A stretch of DNA of 64,000 bases from Labilibaculum sp. DW002 (GTDB taxonomy: Bacteria; Bacteroidota; Bacteroidia; Bacteroidales; Marinifilaceae), in the NCBI RefSeq assembly GCF_029029525.1, contig NZ_JAKJSC010000001.1:1896987-1960986 (forward strand). The letters run 5' to 3'. Both the position numbers and the translations under genes were made by a program. Below, one piece after another: positions 14,289 to 20,717 of the stretch (positions within the stretch are counted from its first letter, which is position 1; each line of letters starts with the position of its first letter). The notes beneath the pieces were generated by a model that searched no databases, had not been told where the DNA came from, and worked only from the letters and a program-made list of their open reading frames with translations.

Positions 14289-14302
14289 AATACTGTTTTT
14301 AA

Positions 14303-14557
14303 TTAATCATCAAATTCTTCGTCATAAAGATCTTCCTGACTCTCCAACTCATCATTGTAGAATGTCTCGGCCTCATCCATTAGATCTACAATCAGATTTT
14401 CATCTTCAGGAGCTTTATCTAACCAATGTACCGTCTGATTAGAAGTAAAATCCTCTACATCACATTCAATAATACACTTAGGAGAATGTGTGTGGATGAT
14501 AAAAAGAGTATCTGGTAACTCTTGTGAATTGTCTGCTAATAAAAACTTTGGGAGCAT
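14303..14557 (-). CDS. Small acidic hypothetical protein
   Basis: 84 aa. A hydrophobic N-terminal half (DTLFIIHTHSPKCIIEC) and a very acidic C-terminus (MDEAETFYNDELESQEDLYDEEFDD). No recognised domain and no signal peptide. It is 14 bp upstream of the PspC gene and probably in one transcript with it. Confidence 0.65.
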   Translation of the reverse strand: MLPKFLLADNSQELPDTLFIIHTHSPKCIIECDVEDFTSNQTVHWLDKAPEDENLIVDLMDEAETFYNDELESQEDLYDEEFDD

Positions 14558-14977
14558 AACTTATTTTTTAATTTCGATGTAAATATAGGAAGAGATTGAA
14601 TTCCAAGCAACAAAATTAGACTAACTATTTATAATTTAAGCATTTTTATCAATATGCCGTGCATCTTCAAGATCAGACAGCTCAATTTCAATCTCGTCGC
14701 TCATCATTTCATTTTGAATTTGGATCTACCTTAGTTAGGGAATTACAACTATTTTATCAGTTCTGCTTTCATTCCACTTTACTTATCAATCCTATAAATC
14801 AACTTCAAAAGGAGAGTGTATAAATAACAACCACACAAATCATAAACTTATAACACTGATAATGAACACCATTACAATCTAAATATGATTTTCTATGCAA
14901 ACGTTTCTTATAAATTAGAAAAAGACCCGCAGGTATTATTTTATTACTTTCTTGTTGGATTAGTCAGAATATCTTCC
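14558..14977. other. Non-coding stretch upstream of the sulfur operon
   Basis: About 420 bp of AT-rich DNA between the divergently transcribed small acidic gene and the sulfite-reduction operon. The only open frame noticed is a 23-codon minus-strand ORF (14636-14707, acidic, MMSDEIEIELSDLED...) with no supporting signal. Promoters for both directions must lie here. Confidence 0.5.
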
Positions 14978-14985
14978 TAAACTTG
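14955..14985 (+). promoter_or_regulatory. Candidate promoter of the sulfite-reduction operon leader
   Basis: TTG at 14955-14957, 20 bp spacer, then TAAACTTG at 14978-14985, one base off the Bacteroidota -7 consensus TAnnTTTG with its TTG -33 element. It would start transcription about 30 nt before the first leader ORF. Confidence 0.45.
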
Positions 14986-15020
14986 TATCAAATAAACAGA
15001 TCAAAATATCCGAATTAGCA

Positions 15021-15119
15021 ATGAGCAATTTCCTTCAAAATAACAAAATGACTATGTCTATGTGTACAACCTGTTGTATGTGTATGGAAAGTCGCGTTAT
15101 GCAAAAAGGAACAGCTTAA
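15021..15119 (+). CDS. Leader peptide 1, Cys/Met-rich, attenuator of the sulfite-reduction operon
   Basis: 32-codon ORF (ATG 15021, TAA 15117). Codons 14-22 read ATG TGT ACA ACC TGT TGT ATG TGT ATG (MCTTCCMCM): four Cys codons in seven and several Met codons. It is followed 33 nt later by an intrinsic terminator. Bases 15099-15109, inside its last codons, are perfectly complementary to the terminator's 5' arm. A ribosome stalled at the Cys codons would leave this segment free to act as antiterminator; one that reaches the stop would cover it. This is the trp-type attenuation design, here placed before siroheme and sulfite reductase genes. Translation itself is inferred. Starts at ATG 15048 or 15054 in the same frame are also possible. 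Confidence 0.8.
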   Translation: MSNFLQNNKMTMSMCTTCCMCMESRVMQKGTA

Positions 15120-15151
15120 TTGAAAAAAATTCGGTATCAGGATATTTTCAT

Positions 15152-15184
15152 AAGCCTTTTTGCATTAGCAGAAAGGCTTTTTTT
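15152..15184 (+). terminator. Attenuator terminator 1
   Basis: AAGCCTTTTTGC, loop ATTA, GCAGAAAGGCTT (12 bp, one T-G wobble), then seven Ts. Its 5' arm (15155-15165, CCTTTTTGCAT) can instead pair perfectly with 15099-15109 (ATGCAAAAAGG) in the leader ORF. Confidence 0.88.
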
Positions 15185-15248
15185 ATATCCAAAATAATGA
15201 TCTCGACAAGAAATGTAAACAGTACAAGAATCTATTTCTCTATAAAGG

Positions 15249-15332
15249 ATGAAAAGAAATTCAGACCATACAAAAAACAGATCCAACCTAGCATTATGTT
15301 GTTGTATGTGTATGTTAAGGTATCCACCCTAG
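15249..15332 (+). CDS. Leader peptide 2, Cys/Met-rich, second attenuator
   Basis: 27-codon ORF (ATG 15249, TAG 15330) preceded in frame by TAA. Codons 17-22 read TGT TGT TGT ATG TGT ATG (CCCMCM). It shares the exact 15-mer TGTTGTATGTGTATG with leader 1 (15300-15314 and 15072-15086), in the same relative frame. A terminator follows 38 nt after the stop. GCAGAAA (15332-15338), next to the stop, can pair with TTTCTGC of the terminator's 5' arm (15375-15381), a shorter antiterminator than in copy 1. It is located between terminator 1 and the DUF2061 gene. Confidence 0.75.
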   Translation: MKRNSDHTKNRSNLALCCCMCMLRYPP

Positions 15333-15370
15333 CAGAAATCGTTATGTACCTAAATGAACATTACATATCG

Positions 15371-15401
15371 AGTCTTTCTGCATTGCAGAAGGACTTTTTT
15401 T
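15371..15401 (+). terminator. Attenuator terminator 2
   Basis: AGTCTTTCTGC, loop ATT, GCAGAAGGACT (11 bp, one G-T wobble), then seven Ts ending 20 bp before the DUF2061 start codon. A terminator so close to a start codon makes sense only as a regulated one. Confidence 0.87.
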
Positions 15402-15421
15402 ATTCTTGTAAGTCAAGTGAA

Positions 15422-15652
15422 ATGAAAGAGAAGAATTACAGAAGCATCCTAAAAACCATATCCTGGAGAACGATAGGAACAATTGACACCATACTAATTT
15501 CCTACTTCGTTATTGGAGATTTAAAATGGGCCATGTCGATTGGCGGAGTTGAATTGTTTACGAAAATGGGACTCTATTTTGTTCATGAACGAACATGGAA
15601 TAAAATTCAGTTAGGCAAAGAAAAAGAGCATCCTATTGATTATCACATTTAA
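15422..15652 (+). CDS. DUF2061 small membrane protein
   Basis: 76 aa with two hydrophobic segments around RTIGTIDTILISYFVIGDLKWAMSIGGVELFTKMGLYFVHERTWNKI, the DUF2061 signature. DUF2061 proteins are often found with sulfate-assimilation genes and may have a membrane role there, but no function is established. The same frame is open back to 15062, but that extension runs through both attenuator terminators and reads the Cys codons out of frame, so ATG 15422 is taken. First structural gene of the operon; 11 bp to the next. Confidence 0.85.
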   Translation: MKEKNYRSILKTISWRTIGTIDTILISYFVIGDLKWAMSIGGVELFTKMGLYFVHERTWNKIQLGKEKEHPIDYHI

Positions 15653-15663
15653 AAAGCAAGATC

Positions 15664-16146
15664 ATGTCAAAACATAATAAACAATTTTTACCAATCGCCT
15701 TAGATATTACAGATAAGAAAATACTAATTATTGGTGGCGATGAAGACGCTTATAAAAAACTGAAAATATTACAGAGGAGTACAGATTTAATTGAAGTAAT
15801 CGCTCCTAAAATCATCGACTGGATAAAAAATGCAGGAGTGATTTTCCACGAGAAACAATACGATAAGAGCATTCTTAAAGATTACTTTTTAATATACAGT
15901 TGTGTTGAAGATCCTGCATTTGTGAGACAATTAATAAGAGATACAAAAGAAGCAGGCGTACTATTAAATGTTCACGATCAACCTAATTTGTGTGAATTTG
16001 TATCTCCTGCAATTTACAAGCAATCGAATGTCAGTATTGCTGTTAGCTCTAACGGTAAAGATGTTTACGAATCGATACGAGTTAGGAACCAATTGAAAGA
16101 TTACTTTGAAAATTATCAGCTTCAAAAACTACTAATTGCCAATTAA
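15664..16146 (+). CDS. Precorrin-2 dehydrogenase/sirohydrochlorin ferrochelatase-like (siroheme synthase)
   Basis: 160 aa. A Rossmann-like N-terminus (LPIALDITDKKILIIGGDEDAYKK) followed by the Met8p/CysG-N pattern: VLLNVHDQPNLCEFVSPAIY and VSIAVSSNGKDVY. It oxidises precorrin-2 to sirohydrochlorin with NAD+ and may insert Fe2+ to give siroheme, the cofactor of the sulfite reductase encoded downstream. It is shorter than the about 200 aa of typical members, ending soon after the dimerisation region, so the ferrochelatase part may be reduced. It abuts cysJ, with the stop and the next start 1 bp apart. Confidence 0.87.
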   Translation: MSKHNKQFLPIALDITDKKILIIGGDEDAYKKLKILQRSTDLIEVIAPKIIDWIKNAGVIFHEKQYDKSILKDYFLIYSCVEDPAFVRQLIRDTKEAGVLLNVHDQPNLCEFVSPAIYKQSNVSIAVSSNGKDVYESIRVRNQLKDYFENYQLQKLLIAN

Positions 16147-16147
16147 G

Positions 16148-17923
16148 ATGGGAAAAGAATATCAAATCAATCAAGAACAATTAGCTCAGCTTAATCAGCT
16201 GATTCAAAATTTATCTGCCGATCAGTTGGTATGGGTAAATGGATACATATCGGGAATCATTAATGGAAAAGATGATGCACTCTTGCTCCCCAAAATCTCT
16301 GTTCCAAAATCAGCGGAAAGCATAACAATTTTGTACGGGACACATACAGGACACAGCAAAGAAATAGGGCTCGATTTATACGATAAAGTGCTTGCCTTAG
16401 GTTTTAATGCAAAACTACAAGGTGTAGATGATTATAAGAAGAATGACTTGAAGAAAGAAAAGTATGTCTTCCTAATAATTAGTACTCATGGTGAAGGTGA
16501 TGCTCCAATTCAGGCAGAAGATTTTTACGAATATGTGCATGGCACAAGAGCGCCAAAACTACCAGATACCAAATATGCTGTACTTGCGTTGGGCGATAAA
16601 ACATACAAGAAATATTGCCAAACAGGTATCGATTTCGATCAACAGTTTACAAAATTGGGAGCACAAGCAATAATTCCTGTGCAAACGAGCGATGTAGCTT
16701 ACGAAGAAGTTGCAGAAAAATGGATCGAAACAATTCTGAATGAATTAAAAACTCTAGCTCCAGAAATAGCGAGCAGTCCGCAAAGCAAGTCGACTTCTGC
16801 TCCAAAAAAGAAATTTAACCGTTCAAATCCTTACTATGCTGAGGTTCTGGAAAAAGTAAGAATCACAACAAGCGATTCTGAAAAGGAAATTTATCATGTT
16901 GAAATCTCTTTAGAAGATTCTGGAATTGAATATCAGGCAGGTGATAGCATTGGTATTCTTCCTAATAACCCAATCGATTTGGTTGATTTACTAATAAATA
17001 AATTCGAAGATGATCCAGAGCGAATTGTAACAGTTGGCGAGAAAGAACTTAGCTTGTTTAGAGCCTTACAAAACAAACTGGAAATAACGGTTTTAAATCA
17101 GGAAGTACTGACAAAATACAATGCTCTTGTTCAGAATAAAGATCTGGAAGCACTGCTAAACAATGAAGACAAACTAGAAGAATATTTGTATGGCGCTGAT
17201 GCATATGATTTGCTGGAAGATTATCCTGGTGAAATTACAAGCGATCAATTCCTGTCGGTTCTTAGAGTTTTGTACGCTCGCCTCTACTCCATTTCATCTG
17301 GGCCTAGTGCTAATCCCGAAGAGGTTCACATCACCATTGCATCGGTAAGATATCAGCAAAAAAAGCGAGACCGTAAGGGTGCTTGTTCTTCTTATGTTAG
17401 CGATGAAATTAATGCAGGCGATCACATTCCTATTTACATCGATAAAAATGAAGCATTCCGTTTACCGGATGATGAAAATAAGCCTTTAATAATGGTTGGA
17501 GCAGGAACAGGTGTTGCTCCATACAGAAGTTTCTTACAAGAACGAGAACAAAATAGTGCGAAAGGAAAAAACTGGTTGTTCTTTGGTAATCAACGCTTCA
17601 AAAAAGATTTCTTGTATCAGGTTGAGTGGCAAAAATTCCTAAAAAAAGGCACACTACAAAAGCTAGATGTAGCTTTCTCAAGAGATCAGGAAGATAAGGA
17701 ATACGTTCAGCATCGATTGAAAGAAAATGGCAACGAAGTGTACCAATGGCTTGAAAATGGAGCTCATTTTTACATCTGCGGAGACAAGAAGTATATGGCG
17801 AAGGATGTTCAGGATACTCTGCTTGAGATTATTCAAAATGAAGGTGGCATAACACCCGATAAAGCAGAAGAATATTTGAAAAACCTGAAGAGAGAAAAGC
17901 GTTTGCTGCTTGATGTGTATTAG
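16148..17923 (+). CDS. cysJ: Sulfite reductase flavoprotein subunit (CysJ-like diflavin reductase)
   Basis: 591 aa. Order of domains: an N-terminal helical lead; a flavodoxin-like FMN domain (about 55-195, with TILYGTHTGHSKE and STHGEGDAP); a connecting/FAD domain (about 230-440, with RLYSISSGPS near 377 and KGACSSYVSD); and an NADPH domain (VGAGTGVAPYRSFLQERE near 450, YICGDKKYMAKDV), ending LLLDVY. It passes electrons from NADPH through FAD and FMN to CysI. ATG 16148 is chosen over an upstream in-frame TTG at 16136 that overlaps the previous gene. Confidence 0.93.
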   Translation: MGKEYQINQEQLAQLNQLIQNLSADQLVWVNGYISGIINGKDDALLLPKISVPKSAESITILYGTHTGHSKEIGLDLYDKVLALGFNAKLQGVDDYKKNDLKKEKYVFLIISTHGEGDAPIQAEDFYEYVHGTRAPKLPDTKYAVLALGDKTYKKYCQTGIDFDQQFTKLGAQAIIPVQTSDVAYEEVAEKWIETILNELKTLAPEIASSPQSKSTSAPKKKFNRSNPYYAEVLEKVRITTSDSEKEIYHVEISLEDSGIEYQAGDSIGILPNNPIDLVDLLINKFEDDPERIVTVGEKELSLFRALQNKLEITVLNQEVLTKYNALVQNKDLEALLNNEDKLEEYLYGADAYDLLEDYPGEITSDQFLSVLRVLYARLYSISSGPSANPEEVHITIASVRYQQKKRDRKGACSSYVSDEINAGDHIPIYIDKNEAFRLPDDENKPLIMVGAGTGVAPYRSFLQEREQNSAKGKNWLFFGNQRFKKDFLYQVEWQKFLKKGTLQKLDVAFSRDQEDKEYVQHRLKENGNEVYQWLENGAHFYICGDKKYMAKDVQDTLLEIIQNEGGITPDKAEEYLKNLKREKRLLLDVY

Positions 17924-18034: not shown

Positions 18035-19738
18035 ATGTCAGATAATATCAATTGGGCAGAATTGTCCGAAGTAGAAAAAATAAAAACCGACAGTAACTAT
18101 TTACGCGGTACACTTGAGGCCAGCCTTGCCGATCCCATTACAGATGCAATTGCAGTCGATGATCGTCAGGTATCTAAATTCCATGGCATTTATCAACAAT
18201 TCGATCGTGATAACGAACGAGAAAGAAAGAAGACCAAATTGGAACCTGATTACTCTTTTCTTATTCGAGTAAGAGTACCGGGAGGAGTTGTAAATGCACA
18301 ACAGTGGCTTCAAATCGATCAAATATCCGATGAATATGCCAATGGAACCATCAAATTAACAACGCGACAAGCATTTCAGTTTCATGGTGTTTTGAAAGGA
18401 AACTTGAAACCTAGTATTCAATCGATCAACAAAGCTTTATTGGATACCATTGCTGCTTGTGGAGACGTAAATAGAAACGTGATGGCAAGTCCACACCCAT
18501 ATGGCTCTGAGGTTTTCGATCAGGTGCAAGAATTGGCTGGGAAAGTTAGTGATCATTTAACGCCTAGAACACCGGCTTATTACGAAATCTGGCTCGACCA
18601 GAAAAAAGTTGCAGAAGGAAGCGCTGGTGAAGTGGAACCCTTATATGGTCCGGTGTATTTGCCACGAAAATTTAAGATTGGATTTACCACACCGCCTTTC
18701 AATGATACGGATGTATTCACGCAAGATTTAGGCTTCATCGCGATCGAAAATAATGGTGCACTTGAAGGATTTAATATTGTTGTAGGAGGAGGAATGGGAA
18801 CCACTTTTGGAGATACAGAAACTTATCCTCGATTAGGTAATGTTCTGGGTTTTGCTTCGGTAGAGAACACCGTAGATGTTGCGGAGAAAGTTGTTCTGTT
18901 GCAGAAAGAATTGGGCAATCGAAAAGTGAGAAAGAATGCCCGTTTAAAATATACGATTGATCGTATTGGAGTTGCTAAATTTAAAGAATTACTAAACGAA
19001 AAATTGGGCTACTCTTTGGAAGAAGAAAGAACCTACGCTCTAATTCGAAATGGTGATAAATTTGGATGGCAAAAAGCAAAAGATGGTTTATGGTATCTTG
19101 GTTTGTTTATAGAAGGTGGTAGAGTAAAAGATGTTGATCAGCTAAAGATTAAAACCGCTTTACAGGAAATTGCCGAATTAGGCATTTCTGATTTTAGATT
19201 AACAGGAAATCAAAATCTAGTACTTGGTAAGATTGAAGAAACAAACAAGAAAAAAATAAATCAAATCCTGAAAAAGCATAACCTATTACCACAGGCTATT
19301 TCGGGAACACGAGCGAATTCAATTGCCTGTGTCGCACTAAATACATGTAGTTTAGCTTTTGCTGAAGCTGAAAGATACCTTCCTATCTTAATCGATAAAA
19401 TTGATGAAAGCCTTCAGGAATTTGGTTTAACAAAAGATGAGATTGTGATTCGAATGACAGGCTGTGCCAATGGATGTGGAAGACCTTACGTTGCAGAGAT
19501 AGGTTTCATTGGAAAAGCCCCTGGAAGATACAACTTCTACTTAGGAGGTAATTTTAAAGGTACTCGTTTAAATAATCTGTATCGTGAAAACATAAACGAA
19601 GAAGAAATTCTTAGCGAACTACGTCCGATTTTAAAAGATTACGCCGAAAACAGAACCAAAGGAGAAGAGTTTGGCAATTTTGTTATCCGTAAAGAATATG
19701 TGAAAGAGATTGTGAATGCTAAAGATTTTAAGCATTAA
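18035..19738 (+). CDS. cysI: Sulfite reductase hemoprotein beta subunit (CysI)
   Basis: 567 aa. Siroheme-[4Fe-4S] sulfite reductase that reduces sulfite to sulfide with six electrons from CysJ. The two cluster/siroheme cysteine motifs are present: CVALNTC near residues 431-437 and TGCANGCGRP near 475-484. The N-terminal ferredoxin-like half-domain RQAFQFHGVLKGNLK and GDVNRNVMASPHP are also characteristic. Length matches NADPH-dependent assimilatory enzymes (about 570 aa). It is separated from cysJ by 111 bp of AT-rich spacer without a terminator, so the genes are probably one transcript. Confidence 0.95.
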   Translation: MSDNINWAELSEVEKIKTDSNYLRGTLEASLADPITDAIAVDDRQVSKFHGIYQQFDRDNERERKKTKLEPDYSFLIRVRVPGGVVNAQQWLQIDQISDEYANGTIKLTTRQAFQFHGVLKGNLKPSIQSINKALLDTIAACGDVNRNVMASPHPYGSEVFDQVQELAGKVSDHLTPRTPAYYEIWLDQKKVAEGSAGEVEPLYGPVYLPRKFKIGFTTPPFNDTDVFTQDLGFIAIENNGALEGFNIVVGGGMGTTFGDTETYPRLGNVLGFASVENTVDVAEKVVLLQKELGNRKVRKNARLKYTIDRIGVAKFKELLNEKLGYSLEEERTYALIRNGDKFGWQKAKDGLWYLGLFIEGGRVKDVDQLKIKTALQEIAELGISDFRLTGNQNLVLGKIEETNKKKINQILKKHNLLPQAISGTRANSIACVALNTCSLAFAEAERYLPILIDKIDESLQEFGLTKDEIVIRMTGCANGCGRPYVAEIGFIGKAPGRYNFYLGGNFKGTRLNNLYRENINEEEILSELRPILKDYAENRTKGEEFGNFVIRKEYVKEIVNAKDFKH

Positions 19739-19898: not shown

Positions 19899-20717
19899 AT
19901 GAAAAAAGGAAAAATATGGATTGTTGGTGCCGGACCAGGTGCTGCTGATCTGCTCACAATAAAAGCTTTGCGAAGCATCCAAAACGCAGATGTGATTCTA
20001 TATGATGCATTGATAACTGATGAAGTACGAGAATTGTTTCCTGAAAAAGCTATCCTTATTAATGTGGGAAAGCGATCAGGCGATGGTAAAAATCCAGTAT
20101 CTCGACAAGAATACATTCACGATCAGCTATTGATGTATTACCTTTTGGGAAGTCAGGTGGTGCGTTTGAAATCGGGCGATCCGATGGTTTATGGCAGAGG
20201 TGTGGAAGAGATTCGATATTTATTGGAAATAGGATTGGATTTTGAATTGATTCCAGGAATTAGCGCTGCTATGGCTGCATCGAATGAGTTCTGGATTCCT
20301 CTTACCGAACGAGGAAAATCCTCTGGTATTCATTTTCACTCGGCAGTTAAAGTTGGTGGTGAAAAAAGCACTTTAAATGGCATCATCAAAGAAATTGAAA
20401 ATGACGATACCGTAGTAATTTACATGGGATTGGAACAGTTGAATGCGATGGCTCAAGAATTAAATCAAAAACTGAGCAAAGAGACAAATATCAATGTAGT
20501 TTCCAAAGTAAGTTACCAAGCCAGCGATGTACTTAGTGGCAACACTCGTTTTTTCTCAAAAATTAAAAAAGAGGATCTGCCTGAATCTCCCGCTGTAATT
20601 ATATTGGGTAATCATACGCAAATACCAGGAACGCAAAATGTGTTAGCAAAAGAGAAGTATCCAATTTCTATGAAAGTCAAAAACTTTATTAAACAACCAT
20701 TTCTTAATTTGTTTTAA
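19899..20717 (+). CDS. cobA: Uroporphyrinogen-III C-methyltransferase (SUMT)
   Basis: 272 aa. SAM-dependent methylation of uroporphyrinogen III to precorrin-2, the step just before the dehydrogenase encoded at 15664. Tetrapyrrole-methylase motifs: VGAGPGAADLLTIKAL (8-23), LKSGDPMVYGRGVEE (85-98), IPGISAAMAASNEFWIPLTERG (about 123-144), and the VVIYMGLEQL strand. Together with the dehydrogenase it supplies siroheme for CysI, so the cluster is self-sufficient in its cofactor. The last gene of the operon, with its own strong terminator. Confidence 0.92.
   Translation: MKKGKIWIVGAGPGAADLLTIKALRSIQNADVILYDALITDEVRELFPEKAILINVGKRSGDGKNPVSRQEYIHDQLLMYYLLGSQVVRLKSGDPMVYGRGVEEIRYLLEIGLDFELIPGISAAMAASNEFWIPLTERGKSSGIHFHSAVKVGGEKSTLNGIIKEIENDDTVVIYMGLEQLNAMAQELNQKLSKETNINVVSKVSYQASDVLSGNTRFFSKIKKEDLPESPAVIILGNHTQIPGTQNVLAKEKYPISMKVKNFIKQPFLNLF

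Follow-up and report, generated by a model that had tools for sequence, protein, structure and literature searches.

Bacteroidota are major bacteria of the gut, soil and sea, and little is known, as far as we are aware, about how they adjust sulfate reduction to the amount of cysteine they need. In the 5.4-Mb genome of Labilibaculum sp. DW002, a short, cysteine-rich open reading frame (ORF) and an intrinsic terminator lie upstream of sulfite-reduction genes, which raises the question of what these elements do there. We analyzed a stretch of 64,000 nucleotides around this site, here called the window (contig NZ_JAKJSC010000001.1, positions 1,896,987 to 1,960,986 of the forward strand), and give coordinates as positions of the window unless another locus is named.

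These elements lie in the 5' leader of a DUF2061-cysG-cysJ-cysI-cobA operon on the plus strand. The first gene (15422..15652) encodes a small membrane protein with a DUF2061 domain (PF09834, E 7.3e-22) and is followed by a gene for a siroheme synthase N-terminal domain (CysG N-term; 15664..16146; PF13241, with TIGR01470 above cut-off). Next are a sulfite reductase flavoprotein with flavodoxin, FAD-binding and NAD-binding domains, presumably CysJ (16136..17923), and the NADPH sulfite reductase hemoprotein CysI (18035..19738; NF010029 above cut-off, TIGR02041 0.15 bits below it). The last is a tetrapyrrole methylase (19899..20717; PF00590) that is probably a uroporphyrinogen-III C-methyltransferase. 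These domain and family-model matches bear out an earlier sequence-only reading of the window, which had assigned the genes to siroheme synthesis and sulfite reduction, and the function is the one expected behind a cysteine-pathway attenuator. At two other loci, L110 and L111, the operon is likewise opened by an ORF near the size of the DUF2061 gene (78 and 87 codons).

Leader ORF 1 (15021..15119, plus strand) translates to MSNFLQNNKMTMSMCTTCCMCMESRVMQKGTA followed by a stop and is conserved in relatives. It holds the run Cys-Thr-Thr-Cys-Cys-Met-Cys-Met (15063..15086), with Cys codons starting at 15063, 15072, 15075 and 15081, and the Cys run lies 11 codons ahead of the stop codon. Intrinsic terminator 1 follows at 15152..15184 (-16.9 kcal/mol), in which 15152-15163 pairs with 15168-15179 (12 pairs, loop of 4) before a series of Ts. 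Within the last codons of the ORF, an antiterminator 5' segment (ATGCAAAAAGG, 15099..15109) forms 11 bp with 15155-15165, and its score reaches p=0.005, the floor for 200 shuffles of the sequence from the last Cys codon to the terminator. The sequence-only reading had proposed this ORF with its Cys codons, the terminator and the 11-bp pairing, all of which were recovered. The region from 14300 to 16200 holds two terminator-like sites, terminator 1 among them, compared with an average of 0.6 in shuffles.

A second complete unit, absent from that reading, sits between this feature and the first gene, also on the plus strand. Leader ORF 2 (15249..15332; MKRNSDHTKNRSNLALCCCMCMLRYPP followed by a stop) is likewise conserved in relatives and carries the run Cys-Cys-Cys-Met-Cys-Met (15297..15314). 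Its antiterminator 5' segment, GCAGAAA (15332..15338; p=0.025), begins with the last base of the ORF 2 stop codon and pairs with 15375-15381; the pairing comprises 7 bp in the window and 5-8 in relatives. Terminator 2 (15370..15401, -16.3 kcal/mol) is formed by 15370-15381 with 15385-15396 and then Ts. A 15-mer, TGTTGTATGTGTATG, occurs in both units, at 15072 and 15300, and two matches to its degenerate form with one mismatch allowed were obtained in 0/100 shuffles of the window.

Upstream of leader ORF 1 we found a candidate promoter-like block (14952..14985, plus strand) with a TTG element and TAAACTTG. It resembles what we take to be the -33 and -7 (TAnnTTTG) elements of Bacteroidota and matches this consensus only if mismatches are allowed. 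In an alignment of 10 family sequences the block was well conserved, and no conserved promoter-like block was seen between leader units 1 and 2. The ORF list contains no plus-strand ORF of at least 100 amino acids from 9000 to leader ORF 1. Terminators 1 and 2 thus do not end an upstream gene of that size, and both look like premature terminators of the sulfite-reduction operon. None of the Rfam 15 families (T-box, SAM, Bacteroid-trp, Flavo-1, PyrR and others) matched the window at gathering threshold; PyrR (33.8 bits versus 54 required) and L10-leader, which also scored below its gathering threshold, were rejected as identities.

We read this leader region as two probable trp-type attenuators in series that sense charged tRNA-Cys and probably tRNA-Met, and give this reading, which draws on sequence comparison and folding models, a probability of about 0.9. 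The trp-type attenuation suggested earlier for the first unit is supported by the ORFs, their codon runs, the terminators, mutually exclusive pairings, conservation, compensatory changes, geometry and recurrence ahead of cysteine and sulfur genes in Bacteroidia. RNA polymerase would start near 14990, and a ribosome would translate leader ORF 1 behind it. With an ample supply of charged tRNA-Cys (and probably tRNA-Met), the ribosome would reach the stop codon and cover the antiterminator, the terminator would form, and transcription would end. A ribosome waiting at the Cys/Met run would leave 15099-15109 free to take the terminator 5' arm, and the polymerase would continue to the second, similarly built unit (ORF 15249-15332) and have to pass that one too before reaching the genes. 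In this scheme, we infer the transcription start, translation, stalling on uncharged tRNA, the direction of the response and the serial use of both units on one transcript. Predicted folds of the nascent RNA formed the antiterminator when the ribosome was stalled on leader 1 (-18.0 kcal/mol) or leader 2 (-14.5 kcal/mol) and in neither leader when it stood at the stop codon, while the complete transcript was predicted to fold the terminator. A protector hairpin was predicted in leader 1, not in leader 2.

Both units are retained among close relatives. CysI of the window type is present in 15/56 family genomes, and all 14 that have DNA upstream of cysI carry both leader-terminator units; the fifteenth (G032), with a contig that breaks off 179 bases ahead of cysI, lies outside this count. 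The family leader peptides vary outside the Cys codons, and indels of 3 and 6 bases preserve the frame. Variant runs include CCCVCM in G033 and G034, CCCMCI in G037 and CCMCW in M. caeruleilacunae. In another family, the Prolixibacteraceae, a single leader precedes the same genes in 4/4 records, these being the ones among 80 loci kept from a named-record search, and the peptides differ, with Cys/Met runs such as CTAMCMCCMC, CMMCMCC, CMVCMC and MMCMC. Conservation of the Cys codons had been suggested as a check, and they were indeed kept amid peptide change, with both synonymous codons in use (TGT 187, TGC 90 in the catalogue described below), which indicates that the amino acid is kept and not one DNA word.

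An alignment of 17 sequences (15 distinct) was used to evaluate the pairing. Paired cells amounted to 89.1% for the antiterminator (slid controls 38-60%) and 96.1% for the terminator (slid controls 40-69%). In the Prolixibacteraceae, all four of them, two antiterminator positions and their partners in the terminator arm went from A-U to G-C together, and at one of these positions the terminator 3' arm is compensated too; the four rows are related, and few events may underlie the changes. For the antiterminator, the count of paired cells, the count of cells with change on both sides and the covariation score each exceeded 500/500 shuffles. The covariation that the sequence-only reading had called for was thus found in part: both stems keep pairing through A-U/G-C changes, but the number of antiterminator pairs with two-sided change was no better than in shuffles, 274/500 of which reach it.

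The contig of the window bears another sulfite-reduction operon, L218, at a distance of ~0.26 Mb. It consists of genes for a Sir-type reductase, a uroporphyrinogen methyltransferase, a 202-aa protein that we took for a CysG N-terminal protein, CysH and CysC, and then CysD. Because the 691-aa reductase scores below the cut-off of each named model, we call it putatively NirA/Sir-like. Two Cys/Met leaders in series precede the operon, one ending in NNCCCCMYIPIDKG and a stop and the other containing MMCCICCMCCCMRII, with a terminator behind each; the antiterminator of the first is not significant (p=0.47). Just upstream of both lies a SAM riboswitch aptamer (L218:6179-6282, minus strand, 70.4 bits), and this second operon has three sulfur-related RNA sensors consecutively, the aptamer plus the two leaders. 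The aptamer showed no terminator of its own ahead of the first leader. At L288:4164-4267 a SAM aptamer (57.8 bits) likewise lies just upstream of the two leaders of this operon type; the gathering score for both aptamers is 44.4.

The L218-type reductase occurs in 2/56 family genomes. The window's genome (G000) and G028, which belongs to another genus, share it at 99% identity, and it is absent from G050, of the same species as G000. This identity across genera together with the absence within the species makes a recent horizontal transfer of the operon along with its leaders (L218 / L287 and L288) likely, and the leaders seem to move with their operon.

With the L218 reductase as query, relatives were found in 94/396 sampled genomes of the class, and the upstream DNA was scanned in 90 of these (G413, G491, G572 and G658 were left out; regions L290, L309, L313, L348 and L375 are cut by contig ends). 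A strict scan called short ORFs that have at least three identical residues within 10 codons and a terminator behind them, and a relaxed rule asked for at least two Cys and three Cys plus Met. Cysteine ranked first of the 20 amino acids in the strict scan, with matches in 34/90 genomes on the sense strand and 1/90 on the antisense strand. Under the relaxed rule, leaders were present in 40/90 Bacteroidia genomes in sense and 2/90 in antisense orientation, represented 16/24 families and occurred twice or more in 12/90 genomes. Other residues in the strict scan gave sense and antisense matches in 23 and 0 (Met), 22 and 6 (Leu), 18 and 0 (Asn), 10 and 1 (Thr) and 10 and 0 (Val) genomes. Their terminators were mostly shared with a catalogued Cys/Met leader (Met 31/32, Leu 27/29, Asn 19/20, Thr 12/12, Val 13/13), which indicates that these matches largely re-detect those leaders through a different residue or reading frame. 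Trp gave 0/0, His 1/1 and Pro 1, and Asp, Glu, Gln and Gly gave 0. The immediate upstream regions of 50/90 Sir genomes, including 12/12 of family f173 and 8/8 of f131, showed no leader.

Further targets are cysC (L239, L253), cysE-cysK (L094) and a PF01053 gene with two leaders in G588. G588 belongs to another family and carries three Cys/Met leaders (L094, L084, L406): a single one ahead of cysE-cysK plus other cys genes, and a tandem pair ahead of the PF01053 gene. It has Met-rich runs, e.g., CCMMMMCMC. Among 10 other class genomes with a window-type CysI, G588 was the only one with credible leaders; the weak candidates L088, L089, L092 and L096, which came from a looser listing of NADPH-CysI outside the family, were dropped. 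In eight cysS control loci we found no credible leader, with one poor match more than 1 kb upstream in L397, and in 12 cysK-type and 23 PF01053 control loci leaders were confined to those of G588, plus one poor match in L420. A survey of CysD, whose gene is present in 235/396 genomes, covered 40 regions of 39 genomes and yielded leaders in L218, L225 (weak), L239 and L253. In 30 additional loci taken with flanks of 1.5 kb (L187-L216), the strict scan had a single poor match (L200) and the relaxed rule none. Among the 80 named records, no leader was judged credible in Paludibacter, Hymenobacter, Rhodocytophaga or non-Bacteroidota; the L123 region offers just 72 bases of upstream DNA. Scattered strict-scan matches elsewhere had poor antiterminators or lay inside long ORFs and were dropped as chance. 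When 36 further leader loci were compared with Rfam, only SAM (L218, L288) and tRNA (L301, L333) matches were obtained, none of which overlap the leaders. Altogether, the Cys/Met leader switch is probably a widespread means of Bacteroidota to turn on sulfur assimilation when cysteine is short.

For geometry and folding, 71 leaders in 55 loci were catalogued without a filter on pairing. The catalogue includes a selection of 11 cysJI loci, and because long ORFs were masked, the second leader is missing at some loci; some members are weak (e.g., L305, L316, L376), and related leaders are not independent. Measured from the first nucleotide of the final Cys codon, the best antiterminator starts a median of 17 nt downstream (10th-90th percentile, 10-23). 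It reached p<0.05 versus shuffled spacers in 47/71 leaders, or 35/54 without similar peptides, and was not significant singly in 24/71. Folds were modeled with the ribosome in place and the terminator 3' arm not yet made, and an antiterminator was scored when five or more bases of the arm paired upstream. For a ribosome placed on the last Cys codon, 68/71 nascent RNAs were predicted to form it (mean 9.3; shuffled spacers 5.8), and for one at the stop codon 14/71 (mean 2.2), so the alternation proposed for the first unit, free at a Cys stall and covered at the stop, is reproduced by the model across the catalogue. Shifting the ribosome codon by codon (footprint edge +12) left the predicted pairing in place up to the last Cys codon and then in 66, 54, 42 and 27 of the 71 leaders at +1 to +4, half of the antiterminator pairing being lost 3-4 codons beyond the last Cys. 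Without any ribosome, 61/71 nascent RNAs were still predicted to form the antiterminator. A general trp-like protector hairpin is therefore not evident, and untranslated leaders may read through.

The codon runs also bear on what is sensed. In codon windows picked by Cys alone (n=52), Met made up 16.9% of the other residues versus 2.0% when every sense frame of that DNA was counted. If the mechanism holds, it is nearly certain that Cys is a sensed residue and probable that Met is one as well. The 102 loci scanned for tRNA genes (91 Sir and 11 others) contain two, both tRNA-Cys (GCA) and both located between a Cys/Met leader and the reductase, on the operon strand, in genomes of family f156. 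One (L333:338-410, minus strand) starts 11 nt behind the leader terminator; the other (L301:3613-3684, minus strand) lies just before the reductase gene and ~0.9 kb behind the leader. Their location links the L333 and L301 transcripts, with which they are presumably co-transcribed, to Cys charging. The placement of tRNA-Cys downstream of a Cys attenuator, seen in two genomes, hints at joint control of the supply of the amino acid and that of its tRNA.

Such peptides might instead act as the sensor themselves, the Cys/Met-rich nascent chain binding a thiophilic metal such as copper or reacting with a redox signal, and thereby stalling the ribosome. Cu(I) is typically bound by Cys and Met in combination; in Bordetella, an upstream ORF that senses copper and has a CXXXCC motif has reportedly been described; and the run CCMCM is kept exactly or nearly within the family of the window. 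Across the class, however, the order and spacing of Cys and Met are free (CCCC, CCMMC, MCMCC, CCMMMMCMC, MMCMC). Moreover, the 17-nt median distance between Cys codons and antiterminator is what a stall in the ribosomal A site would give, and the genes behind the leaders belong to sulfate assimilation and Cys/Met metabolism and include tRNA-Cys twice. We consider peptide sensing improbable on these grounds and continue to read the runs as sensors of tRNA charging.

Translation of the ORFs could also work by another route, through Rho access, mRNA decay or reinitiation at the first gene, with the hairpins only limiting background readthrough. Actinobacteria have cysteine leaders that lack terminators, for which Rho has been proposed (PMC1262725). 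In the leaders studied here, by contrast, a terminator and an antiterminator are both present and mutually exclusive, their pairing is kept in relatives, and the terminators begin a median of 31 nt behind the leader stop codon. In the window, the sequence from 9000 to leader ORF 1 also holds no plus-strand ORF of at least 100 amino acids whose transcript would need ending. This makes such a route very unlikely, and premature termination governed by the leader ribosome remains our preferred reading.

The short sequence words were of little use as probes. The exact 15-mer is found in 25/295 sampled genomes of the order, and among these only the window's own copies lie within a leader. The 15-mer was therefore abandoned as a probe for distant relatives. 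The pattern TGYTGYWKBTGY, tried as a regulon finder on both strands of the genome of the window, had 295 matches and was thus too unspecific for listing a regulon. In favor of a chance proximity of Cys-rich short ORFs and unrelated terminators, one may cite that the 15-mer by itself occurs in 24/294 other order genomes (25 places) with no credible leader adjoining, and that 3 of the 17 family genomes carrying the 15-mer lack cysI (G012, G015 and G026; in the last, it lies inside a 207-aa ORF ending at a strong terminator). Chance is nevertheless a negligible explanation given the excess of sense over antisense leaders, their repeated occurrence both within one genome, in two operons, and across two-thirds of the families, and the control loci, where 0/8 cysS loci had a credible leader and cysK-type and PF01053 loci had them only in G588.

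A broader proposal is possible, though we would sooner doubt than assert it: that sulfur-amino-acid attenuators throughout the class read both Cys and Met charging, often in stacks, with a SAM riboswitch ahead of them in one operon and tRNA-Cys among the genes they control in two genomes, and that sulfate assimilation proceeds only if the serial RNA sensors agree. If true, a cascaded RNA logic device would be the main cysteine regulator in these lineages, replacing a dedicated transcription factor. The leaders would offer a direct, testable answer on how sulfate reduction is fitted to cysteine demand as well as a signature for finding regulated operons. Two serial attenuators for the same amino acids are unusual, and stacking may buy a steeper response, a lower leak or separate Cys and Met thresholds.

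The principle of attenuation is already known, and the Cys/Met class in Bacteroidota is apparently new, as we found none in print among open papers. Among the open-literature matches listed, no cysteine attenuator in Bacteroidota was recognized, although a 2010 survey (Lopatovskaya and others) might include one, and the mixed Cys/Met sensor, its breadth and its recurrent stacking in separate operons had no precedent there. Leader-peptide attenuation itself is textbook knowledge from the ribosome-mediated trp- and his-type attenuators of Proteobacteria, and the Bacteroid-trp RNA is a trp attenuator by nature. The tandem attenuators of Salmonella mgtCBR are said to answer two different signals.

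Tandem attenuators have been reported for Salmonella mgtCBR (PMC3641672); unlike there, other genes are involved here, and the two units have codon runs of one kind. Bacteroid-trp RNA (RF01692; PMC2864571) is likewise a cis-regulatory RNA of Bacteroidetes, but it concerns another amino acid and has no gathering-score match in the window. In Flavobacterium psychrophilum, also of Bacteroidota, clues to leader peptides before amino-acid operons were inferred from mapped transcripts; the conserved 5' elements listed in the passage on these clues include pheA and hisG but no cysteine case, and one may be in the supplementary tables (PMC9723704). Mycobacterium and Propionibacterium have leader peptides with Cys codons before their cys operons, as does Bifidobacterium before cbs (PMC1262725). 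Like the leaders here, they have Cys runs before sulfur genes; their runs lie near the stop codon, as do those of some leaders here (L289, L253), but in leader 1 of the window the distance is 11 codons. In contrast to the Bacteroidota leaders, which have terminators, no terminator hairpin was found for them. Similar in build is the uORFC-8-2 motif of Rhodobacterales, an upstream ORF with two tandem Cys codons and a terminator with a U-run, for which charged tRNA-Cys is implicated (PMC8632094). It is reported only before cysS, whereas the targets here are sulfite reductase, cysC, cysE-cysK and a PF01053 gene, and credible leaders before cysS number 0/8. With the trp- and his-type attenuators of Proteobacteria, finally, the leaders share an ORF rich in codons for the product of the pathway, an antiterminator past the stall site and a terminator before the first gene; they differ in that they respond, on our reading, to two amino acids, often come as two serial units, mostly have no evident protector hairpin and belong to Bacteroidota.
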